61,794 nucleotides of DNA. Source: Halothiobacillus sp. 15-55-196. Lineage in GTDB: Bacteria > Pseudomonadota > Gammaproteobacteria > Halothiobacillales > Halothiobacillaceae. Shown here in pieces: positions 23,012 to 41,405 of this stretch. The stretch is taken from contig NCKC01000005.1 in assembly GCA_002282715.1 (NCBI GenBank), forward strand, positions 1-61,794, written 5' to 3'. The position numbers and the translations under genes were made by a program. How positions within the stretch are numbered: the stretch's first letter is position 1; each line of letters begins with the position of its first letter. The notes below the pieces were generated by a model. It saw only the letters and a program-made list of their open reading frames with translations. It did no database searches and was not told the DNA's origin.

Positions 23012-24789
23012 AAAGCCGTCCCGATGCCCAGATGCAATCGCGGCGTGTGTTGATTGCCGTCAAACGGATAGGCCACATCCACGCGCACCATGCCCACCGG
23101 CGAACGCCAACGGATGCCGATACCCGCACCTGTATTCAAATGAATGTTTTTTAACGCATCAAAGGCGTTACCCGTATCGACAAACGCCGCGCCCCACCAG
23201 TCGCGCCCGTACACCGGATGCATCACCTCGGCACTGGCCGTGAACAGGTATTGCCCGCCGATCACCTGGCCGGTCGAATCGATCGGACCCAGCGATTGAT
23301 AGGCATAACCGCGCACGGATTGATCGCCACCGGCAAAAAAACGCAGGCTTTTGGGCAAGGAATTGAAATCGGGTGTCACCACGCCTCCCAACTCGGTGCG
23401 TGTCTTGAACACCCATTTCCCCACAGGATAAAGCCCCCCCAGCATCACGTGGGCGCGCAACAGGGAGGTACTTGAGAGCAACGGCTTTGCCGCCGTGCTG
23501 ATGCCGCTGCTGAACACGAATCCTTTGGTCGGGAACAGCGGATCATTGAGCTCCTGGCGGCCCAAATGGGCACCGAACAACCAAAAACCGGTCGTCTGTG
23601 CCGGATTGCTGCCGAACTGACTGCGGTCAACCAGATATTCACTGTACAAGGAGCTCGTCCACGAATTGAAATTGCGCACCCAACGCAGGCCCGTTGTCGA
23701 CGATAACGTCGTGATGCCGGTGTCCTGCTCCCGATCGAACACCTCGTACAGGTCATAGTGCTGATTCAGGGGATCGGAAATTTTCGGCATACTGTAGGTG
23801 GCGCTGAGCGTTTGTTTGCGCTGTGCCAGGGACAAATCCGCTTTCCACGAATGGCCGGACCGGTTCACATATCGCTGGGTGATTTTGCCACCGAAGCGCG
23901 CGCCCGTATCCGTGCCATAACCGACACGCAGTTCATAACTGCGCGGCTCATTGGGCAGGGTGCGAATCGTGATGGGCACCTCATGCGCCTTGCGCTGATC
24001 CCATTGCGGGCGCACCCGCACGTCGCTGAAATATTGGCTGCTCGACAGATTCTGGTTCATGGCCACCAGCGTTTGCGTGGAGTAGGTATCGCCGGTTTTT
24101 GCACCGACCAGATTCTCGGCCAGCTCCGGCCTGAGAATGGTCTGATCGATCGTGATCTTGCCGATGTGGTAGCGGCTGCCCGCATCCAGATCGAGGTGAA
24201 TCTCGGCCGTGTTGGTTTTCGGATCGACCAACAACTCATGCTTTTGCCACTTGGCATCGAGATACCCCGCCCCACGCACGCGCTCCATGATGCCGTCACG
24301 CAGGGCGACATAAACGCCCTGATTTAAAAGCGCAGCCTTCGCGGGACGCGCGGTTTTGAGGTAGTCACGCAGAAACGGTTGTCGGGTCAGATCGTCCCCT
24401 GCCGCCGTGTTCACGACGACATCAACGGCGGCAATACGCACCCGCGGGCCGGGGGTGATGTCCATCGTCGGCATGGCGCAATCAGGATCTTGTTTCAAAT
24501 GGGTTTGAATCCGTGCATTGAAATAACCCATGGCTTGCAGCGCATCCCGCGCCGCCAGGGTGGCCGATTGCAAATAACGCCGCATCAATACGGGCGAGGC
24601 ATCACACGTGAAGCGAATCGGTGGAACGGACAGCCCCACCTGGAGAATCAGCGCCTTGTTCTGGGCTTGGGTGATCTCGCCGGTCAGTTGCAGTTGCGGT
24701 TTCCCGCTGGCCGCCTGTGCCGCAGACATACTCAGAAACAGCACAAGCAAAAAGACAACCGGTGAAAACCACAACAGACGGCCTAACAT
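23008..24789 (-). CDS. tamA: TamA, Omp85-family outer-membrane component
   Basis: An Omp85-family barrel protein of about 593 aa. The start at the ATG ending at 24789 gives a signal peptide (MLGRLLWFSPVVFLLVLFLS, then MSAAQA, cleavage before ASGK); the 25-codon upstream extension overlaps parE. Three POTRA domains span roughly residues 30-260, and the 16-strand barrel follows, with the conserved GGDQSVRGYAYQSLGP (the VRGY motif of Omp85 loop L6) and a C-terminal strand ending in LHLGIGTAF, a terminal aromatic suited to BAM recognition. Coupled to tamB by ATGA overlap. Confidence 0.95.
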   Translation of the reverse strand: MLGRLLWFSPVVFLLVLFLSMSAAQAASGKPQLQLTGEITQAQNKALILQVGLSVPPIRFTCDASPVLMRRYLQSATLAARDALQAMGYFNARIQTHLKQDPDCAMPTMDITPGPRVRIAAVDVVVNTAAGDDLTRQPFLRDYLKTARPAKAALLNQGVYVALRDGIMERVRGAGYLDAKWQKHELLVDPKTNTAEIHLDLDAGSRYHIGKITIDQTILRPELAENLVGAKTGDTYSTQTLVAMNQNLSSSQYFSDVRVRPQWDQRKAHEVPITIRTLPNEPRSYELRVGYGTDTGARFGGKITQRYVNRSGHSWKADLSLAQRKQTLSATYSMPKISDPLNQHYDLYEVFDREQDTGITTLSSTTGLRWVRNFNSWTSSLYSEYLVDRSQFGSNPAQTTGFWLFGAHLGRQELNDPLFPTKGFVFSSGISTAAKPLLSSTSLLRAHVMLGGLYPVGKWVFKTRTELGGVVTPDFNSLPKSLRFFAGGDQSVRGYAYQSLGPIDSTGQVIGGQYLFTASAEVMHPVYGRDWWGAAFVDTGNAFDALKNIHLNTGAGIGIRWRSPVGMVRVDVAYPFDGNQHTPRLHLGIGTAF

Positions 24790-39108: not shown

Positions 39109-40308
39109 TTATGGTGCGCGGGTGACGATGCGGTCGTATCCATCACCTGCGGCAATGGCGTGTGTTTGTTCCACCGACCAATAGCCTTTTGGATTATTGA
39201 ACGTCTGCATGTACAGCTGCTCATTGAGCCCCGGCCGTTCGCGGATATCGATTTTCCACAGCAGATGAGCAATCCCCCGAACAGCCCCCATGGCCAAAAA
39301 GGACAACTGCTTCTCACCGGCCTCTGGTGGATAAAGCCGACGGAAACCAACGCCTTCGTAGGAGTTGTAAATCCGGATAACCAGCTCTTTGCCCGGCTCG
39401 ATCTTCTCCACGCGCCATACGCCCCATCCCAGCGCATTAACGACCGCAACGATGCCATGCACCCAGTCGCTCACATTCTGGCACATGGGTTTGATCATTT
39501 GATCCCAGGCATCGCTTTCCATGATGCCACCTAAGGTATTGAACGCGCACACATGCCCCGCCAAAACAAAAGACTCGCGCGCCATATCCGATGGCACACC
39601 AATCGCCACCATGCGCCGATATACTTCGTAACTGATGAAGTTGTAGTAGTCGGCAAAGTGAATGGTCAAGGCCACGCCGAAAGCGAGAATCAGCCCATTA
39701 CCCCCCTCGGACACAGGCTTGCCGATCAGGGGCATACCGCCGACCGCCTCGATAATCGCCTGCTCATCCACGCCCGTACTCATGGGCGCGCATTCGGGGA
39801 AATCGAACCGGGCCGGGGCATCTGTCATCGTTTCCGAATTCTTGATGAATGGTGGCAGTGGCTCGATGGCCGCACCAAGCTCGAACCGATCCATACCACC
39901 GCCAGCGTGCCGACAACCGACCTCTCGCGTCGCGCGCCCGGTCATGCCACTGATAAAGCCCGCATCGAAGAAGCAACTGGGTTCCGGACGACCGTGGATA
40001 TAGGTTTTCTCGCCGTAGTGAGAATGCTCTGCAACCCAGTGATCGGCATCTTCCTGTCTCAGCACACCAAACCCGCAGGCGGTATATTCCGCCAGCAGGT
40101 CCGACTCTGAATATCCCTTTTCTCTCAAGTATTCGACGACCATTCGAGCACCGCGGGAAAGCAGTTCCCGGGGGTCAAAGCCCTCTTCGATTCCCTCACC
40201 CAACAAGACAGCCATTTGCAAATGGGCATTGTAGTGATTGCAATGGAACACATGGCTCAAACCACCGATTCGAATCAAACCACGATCAGCCTCAATGTTC
40301 ATACTCAT
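39109..40308 (-). CDS. Unknown 399-aa protein: internal duplication, each half ending in a V4R-like pattern
   Basis: I do not recognise this protein. No signal peptide or membrane segment is evident. It appears to be a tandem duplication: GLIRIGG..H..HYN (residues 10-27) corresponds to GLILAFG..IHFADYYN (205-223). Likewise ACGFGVLR (77-84) matches ALGWGVWR (292-299), and CFFDAGFISGMTGR...CRHAGGGMDRFEL (112-144) matches SFLAMGAVRGIAH...EQTHAIAAGDGYDRIV (336-395). The last pattern, F..G...G followed by an acidic residue and GG/GD before an aromatic or hydrophobic strand, resembles the end of 4-vinyl reductase (V4R) ligand-binding domains; that link is tentative. The N-half is rich in His/Cys (H19, H22, C23, H25, H95, H97, H134, C112, C132), largely lost from the C-half. 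A ribosome-binding site (AAGGAA) precedes the ATG. It follows the repeat protein by 49 bp and is almost certainly co-transcribed with it. Confidence 0.75.
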   Translation of the reverse strand: MSMNIEADRGLIRIGGLSHVFHCNHYNAHLQMAVLLGEGIEEGFDPRELLSRGARMVVEYLREKGYSESDLLAEYTACGFGVLRQEDADHWVAEHSHYGEKTYIHGRPEPSCFFDAGFISGMTGRATREVGCRHAGGGMDRFELGAAIEPLPPFIKNSETMTDAPARFDFPECAPMSTGVDEQAIIEAVGGMPLIGKPVSEGGNGLILAFGVALTIHFADYYNFISYEVYRRMVAIGVPSDMARESFVLAGHVCAFNTLGGIMESDAWDQMIKPMCQNVSDWVHGIVAVVNALGWGVWRVEKIEPGKELVIRIYNSYEGVGFRRLYPPEAGEKQLSFLAMGAVRGIAHLLWKIDIRERPGLNEQLYMQTFNNPKGYWSVEQTHAIAAGDGYDRIVTRAP

Positions 40309-40357
40309 GAAATTTTCCTTTTATATAAATTCGGTGTACCTACTCAGTGAACGGCCA

Positions 40358-41338
40358 TTATTTTTCCGGATCAATAAATGCTTCTAAATCTTCAAAATAA
40401 AGCCCGTATTCATTGCGTAAAAACTCAGCAAGCTGATCCATTTGCAAGTCGTTAAGAATCAACTCTGACATACCGGGCTGGAACTGAATCCCGAGCTTGC
40501 CCAGCGTCTCCTGGCATCCGGCGGTAATCAGGGCCGGAGAAAGCGGCTTGTAACCCAGACTTGCTCTTTGGCGCATGACAGCCATGATGAGCGCGGGCAC
40601 GCTAATGCGATGTACCCGCTTGTGAAACACACGCTCAAGCCAAGAAAGCTTACGGGGCTTTTCGCGTTGACGCCGCAAACCTGCAACGACCAGTTCGTGA
40701 GTCCCTCCCGGAAGATTGACATCAAACTGCTCAATCAGAATGCTTTGCAACGCATCCAGATCAAGGGGAGACATCTCCAAAGAGGCTTGACCGAAATCCA
40801 GTCTCCTTCGTCTCAAGATACTGAAGCGGACTCCCAGTCGAACAGAAATTACCGCCGGCTCTATCGGCGGCAATTGAGCCTGACGCCGACTTTGGTTGAT
40901 GGCAATGTACAAATCGACCAGGTAAATCTGCTTGAGCGATTCATTGGTCTCTGCACGAGCAGGTTCAACAGGAGCAATAGGTTTTGTCGCCGCCTCGGGT
41001 TGATCGGAATGAATTTTCTGAACTTGCGAGGGTGCGCTGTCTGGAGCAGATTCAACTGGCGCCTGATTACTGGACAATTCTTGCAGTTGTTGCGCATTGA
41101 AGCTGGTCTGGAACAGTTCATTGAGTACGCGAGCCAATTCATCCGTGGCATTCGATGAGAGAACGACGGGCAACTTACCTTCAATTCGATCCTGGCCCTT
41201 GATCGCCAGACGGATATTCATGCGAACGCGCATCACAGCGTGTTCAATCTGGGGCAATCCCGCCACCTTTCGCTCTGCATTGATCGCTGCAAAGATTCGC
41301 TCCAGATCAATAACGACGGATTGGTGTGCGGGCGACAT
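40358..41338 (-). CDS. Unknown 326-aa protein built of three diverged copies of a ~70-aa module
   Basis: Not a family I know. Three segments, about residues 8-80, 136-209 and 243-315, follow one plan: a helix opening with a hydrophobic pair and A-[IV]-x(2-3)-R (AAINAER, IAINQSRR, MAVMRQR), a turn [GQ]-L/Y-x-P-[IL] (GLPQIEHAV, QLPPIEPAV, GYKPLSPAL), a basic second helix (VRMNIRLAI, VRLGVRFSI, less basic in copy 3), and an acidic third helix with L..L/[IL]L..x-F/Y (ELARVLNELF, ALQSILIEQF, QLAEFLRNEY). Copies 1 and 2 are joined by a Pro/Ala/Glu/Ser-rich linker (81-135), copies 2 and 3 by a basic one (LRRQREKPRKLSWLERVFHK). No membrane segments. The ATG ending at 41338 follows AAGGAG with 8-nt spacing and is preferred to one ten codons earlier. 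Confidence 0.8.
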   Translation of the reverse strand: MSPAHQSVVIDLERIFAAINAERKVAGLPQIEHAVMRVRMNIRLAIKGQDRIEGKLPVVLSSNATDELARVLNELFQTSFNAQQLQELSSNQAPVESAPDSAPSQVQKIHSDQPEAATKPIAPVEPARAETNESLKQIYLVDLYIAINQSRRQAQLPPIEPAVISVRLGVRFSILRRRRLDFGQASLEMSPLDLDALQSILIEQFDVNLPGGTHELVVAGLRRQREKPRKLSWLERVFHKRVHRISVPALIMAVMRQRASLGYKPLSPALITAGCQETLGKLGIQFQPGMSELILNDLQMDQLAEFLRNEYGLYFEDLEAFIDPEK

Positions 41339-41391
41339 AAGCCAAACTCCTTGCATGAAATACATCAATTTCCGACATTGGAGGTCATCTA

Positions 41392-41405
41392 TTGATCAAA
41401 GTCAA
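41392..41405 (-). promoter_or_regulatory. Near-consensus FNR/ANR-type binding site upstream of the repeat-protein gene
   Basis: Minus-strand TTGACTTTGATCAA against the FNR consensus TTGAT-N4-ATCAA: one mismatch. It lies 54 bp upstream of the ATG of the 326-aa gene, a distance that would suit activation with a promoter about 40 bp downstream of its centre. No good -10 hexamer was found at that spacing, so activation is uncertain. Confidence 0.5.

Follow-up and report, generated by a model that had tools for sequence, protein, structure and literature searches.

The window analysed here is the whole 61,794-nucleotide stretch of contig NCKC01000005.1 from a Halothiobacillus-like genome, and two adjacent genes on its minus strand encode the proteins that we call M3 and V. 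M3 (open reading frame ORF1, 40358..41338) starts with ATG and has 326 amino acids (aa) in three modules of an unnamed family. V (ORF2, 39109..40308) also starts with ATG and has 399 aa, predicted to form two V4R-fold halves in one chain. The two genes are 49 base pairs (bp) apart and each is preceded by a good ribosome-binding site, AAGGAG for M3 (41347..41352, 8 nt before the ATG) and AAGGA for V (40316..40320, 7 nt before the ATG), as a preliminary description of this DNA had claimed. While an alternative, longer ORF1 begins at an upstream TTG, the ATG at 41338 is preferred as the start of M3 because it has the better ribosome-binding site and is shared by most full-length aligned relatives. 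The pair belongs to a conserved two- to three-gene unit with unnamed partner families, found mostly in genomes that have sulfur-oxidation genes, and we tentatively propose that it is a cytoplasmic sensing unit.

A contig scan with the V alignment gave 48 V loci from other genomes, from which profiles of V, of the M family to which the M3 modules belong, and of a third gene, C, were built. In 44 of the 48 loci, an M gene came immediately before V in the same orientation. In two of the exceptions V was cut by a contig end (L024 and L063, the latter with M downstream), and in the other two no M was found within 3.1 kb (L053) and 1.3 kb (L060) of upstream sequence. Among the 30 of these 44 loci in which the V start could be set automatically, the gap between M and V was 60 bp or less in 29, and the two genes overlapped in 15; these distances are approximate. 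Thus, the neighbourhood survey proposed in the preliminary description found a conserved pair, and the uncharacterised two-gene unit that it had described was supported. The two outcomes that it had named as refuting, both proteins falling in known, unrelated families and the pair being found in one strain only, did not occur.

The size of the unit has to be revised for other lineages. A small gene of about 100 aa, C, with an invariant cysteine and an invariant tyrosine in 22 aligned rows, preceded M in 23 of the 48 loci, and in L036 C and M formed one open frame. No C was seen beside the pair in Halothiobacillaceae, nor was it found among 57 relatives in a search that had no positive control. 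It appears that the Halothiobacillaceae have dropped C, and the C-M-V order elsewhere points to C as an additional subunit. Since the other neighbours vary between loci, C-M-V behaves as an autonomous unit. A gene named by eye as polyhydroxyalkanoate granule-like was present in six of the 48 loci; in the two inspected, L046 (11263-11682) and L064 (4677-5063), it was just downstream of V.

The orthologues in G009, taken as Halothiobacillus neapolitanus, were 97% identical for V (over 395 columns) and 90% for M3. Full-length V was found in five of 57 genomes, the query included (G000, G001, G008, G009 and G024), and M3 was found in the same five; V was present in five of 27 Halothiobacillaceae genomes. 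Three other genomes of the 57 (G002, G005 and G010) had a looser V relative only, without M. A class-wide draw of 369 genomes gave eight with a match, seven with full-length V and one (G304) with a weak match to a looser relative, and in a phylum-wide draw of 398 genomes V was found in the query genome alone. The 48 loci came from Halothiobacillaceae, Hydrogenophilales, Sedimenticola, Chromatiales and Thiotrichaceae (including Thiomargarita, Thioploca, Marithrix and Beggiatoa-like bacteria); the remainder were in bins labelled more broadly. In the V tree, Halothiobacillaceae clustered with Hydrogenophilales and the genome G382 (support 98/99, 12 rows). The order in the window was flgL-like gene, M3, V and nitroreductase-like ORF, as described for a pair between a nitroreductase and the flagellar cluster, with flanking names that are not profile-based. 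The pair seems to be gained or lost as a unit: in the pair-less congeners G004 and G006, the flgL-like and nitroreductase-like ends were about 60 bp apart at the site of the pair. The stretch examined after flgL revealed no nitroreductase-like gene in G002, G003, G005, G007 and G014.

The predicted model of V had a predicted local distance difference test (pLDDT) score of 93 and a predicted template modelling (pTM) score of 0.92, and it showed the V4R/Bet3 fold. In a fold search with this model, the sensor domains of PoxR, MopR and DmpR were the nearest matches, at 8 to 13% identity when aligned by structure; TRAPP and BcsD were also among the rows. The order of helices and strands in the model was identical in the first half (39868..40296, residues 5-147) and the second half (39118..39765, residues 182-397), the latter being the closer of the two to the PoxR sensor. 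A sequence search of solved structures gave no match for V or for its profile. The claim that both products are internally duplicated held for the M3 modules by profile, and for V at the level of the modelled fold but not of the sequence.

At residues 108-142, V had a weak match to the V4R family PF02830 (E 0.021), below the gathering score (15.3 vs 31 bits), and 14 of 27 aligned V rows matched this family at E of 1 or below, the best being 0.0024. Each half had a conserved G-x3-G pair, G117/G121 (in 27 and 25 of the 27 rows) and G341/G345 (in 27 and 27), which the helix order in the model places in helix 5; a helix-5 glycine pair spaced by three is a V4R feature (PMC2253512). In helix 2, G251 and G260 were invariant in the second half, but their spacing differs from that of the V4R pair, and no helix-2 glycine pair was seen in the first half (helix 46-63). 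The first half also had a metal-site-like set, C112, E129, C132 and D140, which differs from the Cys-Glu-Cys-Cys zinc site of the phenol regulators in having an invariant aspartate in place of the third cysteine. The second half had no corresponding cysteine set. H22 and C23 were invariant at a strand-helix joint, and V as a whole was highly conserved, with a mean column identity of 64% over the 27 rows. Pfam at E up to 1 gave no AAA+ ATPase or DNA-binding domain in V or M3.

The three modules of M3 matched the single-module M proteins by profile at 98.1% for module 1 (41075..41329, residues 4-88), 99.5% with E 3.8e-22 for module 2 (40691..40939, residues 134-216) and 96.1% for module 3 (40361..40612, residues 243-326). 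Within M3, the profile comparisons gave 97.6% for modules 1 and 2, 59% for modules 1 and 3 and 48% for modules 2 and 3. The M3 model (pLDDT 75, pTM 0.35) had a strand-helix-helix-strand-helix order in every module; a fold search with it gave no convincing match, and a sequence search of solved structures gave one stray match only (E 0.024). Of the three, module 2 has the best match to the single-module M proteins of other sulfur bacteria, and a basic segment (40613..40690, residues 217-242, computed isoelectric point 12) comes after it. By eye and position, we took this segment as the counterpart of the short basic, hydrophobic C-terminal tail of the single-module M proteins, a pattern seen in 25 of 30. 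The appearance of the segment prompted the guess that it acts at the membrane. Because the basic segment follows module 2, the module closest to single-module M, the ancestral M was probably module 2 with a tail, to which modules 1 and 3 would have been added later. Two or three module matches were found in all ten rows with a whole M in the clade of Halothiobacillaceae, Hydrogenophilales and G382; among its 12 rows, L018 has a stretch of N and L024 is cut, and neither was counted. Outside this clade, each M gene had a single module match. L048 and L061 were divergent M-V copies whose M lacked the tail pattern, each in a genome with another copy; L056 and L057 had two M genes, and L043 had an M on both sides of V.

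The repeated modules of M, the conservation of V and the TRAPP and BcsD matches of the V model are also what is expected if V has a structural or scaffolding role, like TRAPP subunits or BcsD, which have the same fold, and assembles with the M modules into a membrane-associated complex. We consider this decidedly unlikely.

The looser relatives of V were found in signalling contexts. In G002 (L077 3290-8176), one was in a gene run with a Ras-like GTPase, a Roadblock protein, a PAS protein and a phosphonate-binding-like protein by profile. G005 (L090 3401-12763) had the same gene order by eye, with the Roadblock gene, a response regulator and a CHASE2 kinase confirmed by profile. The V relatives in these two runs, which are candidates for a bacterial V4R/Roadblock/GTPase operon, had 446-458 aa. 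In G010 (L078 3282-8814), a relative of 409 aa was followed 2 bp on by a hybrid histidine kinase with PAS, HisKA, two REC and Hpt domains, and was also near a REC-GGDEF response regulator. Two adjacent genes in L079 (4362-5472), L083 (6017-7150) and L084 (5403-6528), read as corresponding to the two V halves, were a further form, and in L079 (G265) a REC-Roadblock protein (1471-2529) was about 2 kb from the split pair. These contexts support the idea that signalling is the business of the V family. The unit could, by the same token, control a small GTPase in the way that TRAPP acts on Rab proteins; this would fit the G002 and G005 runs and the neighbour of the split pair in G265. We hold this to be highly improbable for M3-V: neither the query genome nor the V-bearing G001, G008, G009 and G024 gave a Roadblock match, and the C and M profiles compared with Roadblock gave 3.7% and under 1%, which is not convincing. 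As nothing in the query genome matched Roadblock, we did not carry the GTPase link over to M3-V.

SoxB and DsrA were surveyed in 44 V genomes covering 47 of the 48 loci (L039 was left out; several loci share a genome). At least one of the two was over the cut-off in 42 genomes, DsrA in 35 and SoxB in 31, counts that are not independent because the genomes are related. Of the two genomes counted without either gene, G771 has a SoxB split over two contigs, and G800 is a bin labelled Bacteroidales whose M-V pair (L049) is placed within Thiotrichaceae by the V tree, so that its contig was likely misplaced by a binning error. In G382 (L080 6818-12171), genes for DsrE, TusA, a Pyr_redox_2 protein (pyridine-nucleotide-disulphide oxidoreductase family; SQR-like by eye) and a DUF1641 protein preceded C-M3-V on the same strand.

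The frequency of SoxB or DsrA in V genomes would also suit a carrier or chaperone. In that case V would hold a hydrophobic or sulfur-bearing cargo such as sulfane sulfur, a quinone or a lipid. Docking V at the membrane would be the role of M, with no signalling involved. The invariant H22 and C23 at the strand-helix joint are consistent with this, as is one report (PMC10933270), which describes palmitate bound in TRAPP Bet3, of the same fold as V, and cavities in archaeal TRAPPC3. On the other hand, the nearest fold matches of V are sensor domains and its looser relatives have signalling genes nearby. We regard a carrier as unlikely; V more likely senses something than carries it.

A near-consensus FNR site had been noted before the first gene, and the palindrome TTGACTTTGATCAA (41392..41405, no strand assigned) is indeed present ahead of M3 with nine of ten consensus bases. 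The motif TTGAY-N4-RTCAA occurred twice in the window against 0.33 expected, a count reached by 6 of 100 shuffles; the second palindrome, TTGATTGCCGTCAA, is at 23050-23063. G001 also has a 9/10 box ahead of M3, and about 150 bp is inserted there between the box and the M3 ribosome-binding site (L013 upstream of 1501). In H. neapolitanus the left half of the box is kept and the right half lost, and the site is not conserved in orthologous promoters. A match of 9/10 or better was found in 4 of 40 upstream regions of relatives, a number reached by 1.5% of letter shuffles (mean 0.88) and by 17.5% of random-window draws from the same loci (mean 2.16); these matches are not clearly above chance. An FNR-controlled oxygen-response module, to which the boxes in the window and G001 and the shuffle result point, is thus most improbable given the lost half-site and the random-window draws, and the oxygen link of the preliminary description was not sustained. 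The redox link survives only through the cysteine and metal-site residues of the V4R fold.

Taken together, we propose that the M3-V pair is one cytoplasmic sensing unit made of a V4R-type two-domain sensor and a modular adaptor, a reading to which we assign a probability of roughly 0.4. It builds on the pairing and its spread, the match of the V fold to phenol sensors, the conserved cysteine and acidic residues of the first V half, and the modular M. V, with its two predicted V4R-type sensor domains, would bind a small ligand or read the redox or reduced-sulfur state. M3 would act as its adaptor, binding V, holding it at the membrane that the basic segment may touch, and relaying the signal. 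The output of V would go through partners because no enzymatic or DNA-binding domain was detected by Pfam in V. The input is probably tied to sulfur metabolism, with sulfur or redox state the likeliest.

Several results weigh against this proposal. The ligand, the partner binding and the membrane contact are predictions rather than direct observations. The two V halves were not alike by profile comparison (0.3% probability), and none of the 30 M tails had a helical hydrophobic moment above that of shuffles (p under 0.05). Beyond C, M and V, the next largest gene cluster occurred in 7 of the 48 loci by a simple ORF caller, and with no constant neighbour besides C, M and V, no pathway can be named from context. 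SoxB and DsrA are also common in class genomes without V: in the sample of 369, SoxB was over the cut-off in 148 and DsrA in 111, so that the occurrence of one or the other in six of the seven genomes with full-length V is not decisive there. The complete, single-contig V genome G382 had neither gene over the cut-off. DsrA is also present in sulfate reducers, and hence DsrA alone is no proof of sulfur oxidation.

A bolder version, which we think unlikely, is that C-M-V is a sulfur-status sensing complex of sulfur oxidisers from Halothiobacillus to Thiomargarita and Beggiatoa, in which the V4R pseudo-dimer would bind polysulfide, elemental sulfur or persulfide at the cysteine/metal site and signal via a membrane-tethered adaptor. 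If so, it would represent a previously undescribed type of reduced-sulfur sensor. If the unit senses sulfur or redox state, it would offer a direct handle on the tuning of sulfur oxidation, in a range that spans the cultured H. neapolitanus and uncultured giant sulfur bacteria. V also provides an example of a tandem V4R-fold protein that has no effector attached. The looser V relative in the Ras-like GTPase/Roadblock run is relevant to the prokaryotic origin that has been proposed for TRAPP (PMC2253512).

In a comparison with known systems, Pfam gave no family above the cut-off for M3, C or M, and M3, the one searched in NCBIfam, had no match in either; V likewise reached no Pfam or NCBIfam cut-off, in line with the statement that neither product belongs to a nameable family. 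PADLOC and PHROGs gave nothing above the cut-off for M3, one M and one C, and none of the anti-phage defence models of PADLOC matched V, M3, or the one C and the one single M that were searched. M and C, which had no convincing PDB sequence match, appear to be undescribed families. V is like PF02830 in residues 108-142, weakly, and in the G-x3-G pairs of both halves. Because it is below the Pfam cut-off and lacks their effector domains, it is filed as a V4R-fold protein and not as a member of the DmpR-type or MsvR-type families. Compared with TRAPP Bet3/TRAPPC3, V is nearer to the bacterial sensors, and its genome has no Roadblock match. The V model matches the V4R sensor domain of DmpR, MopR and PoxR; unlike V, these regulators have AAA+ and DNA-binding domains, a third cysteine where V has its aspartate, and no second half in the same chain. 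MsvR, a methanogen redox regulator with a V4R domain and conserved V4R cysteines, carries a helix-turn-helix DNA-binding domain, which Pfam and NCBIfam did not find in V, and the spacing between the last two positions of the site is 8 in both, C232-C240 in MsvR and C132-D140 in V.
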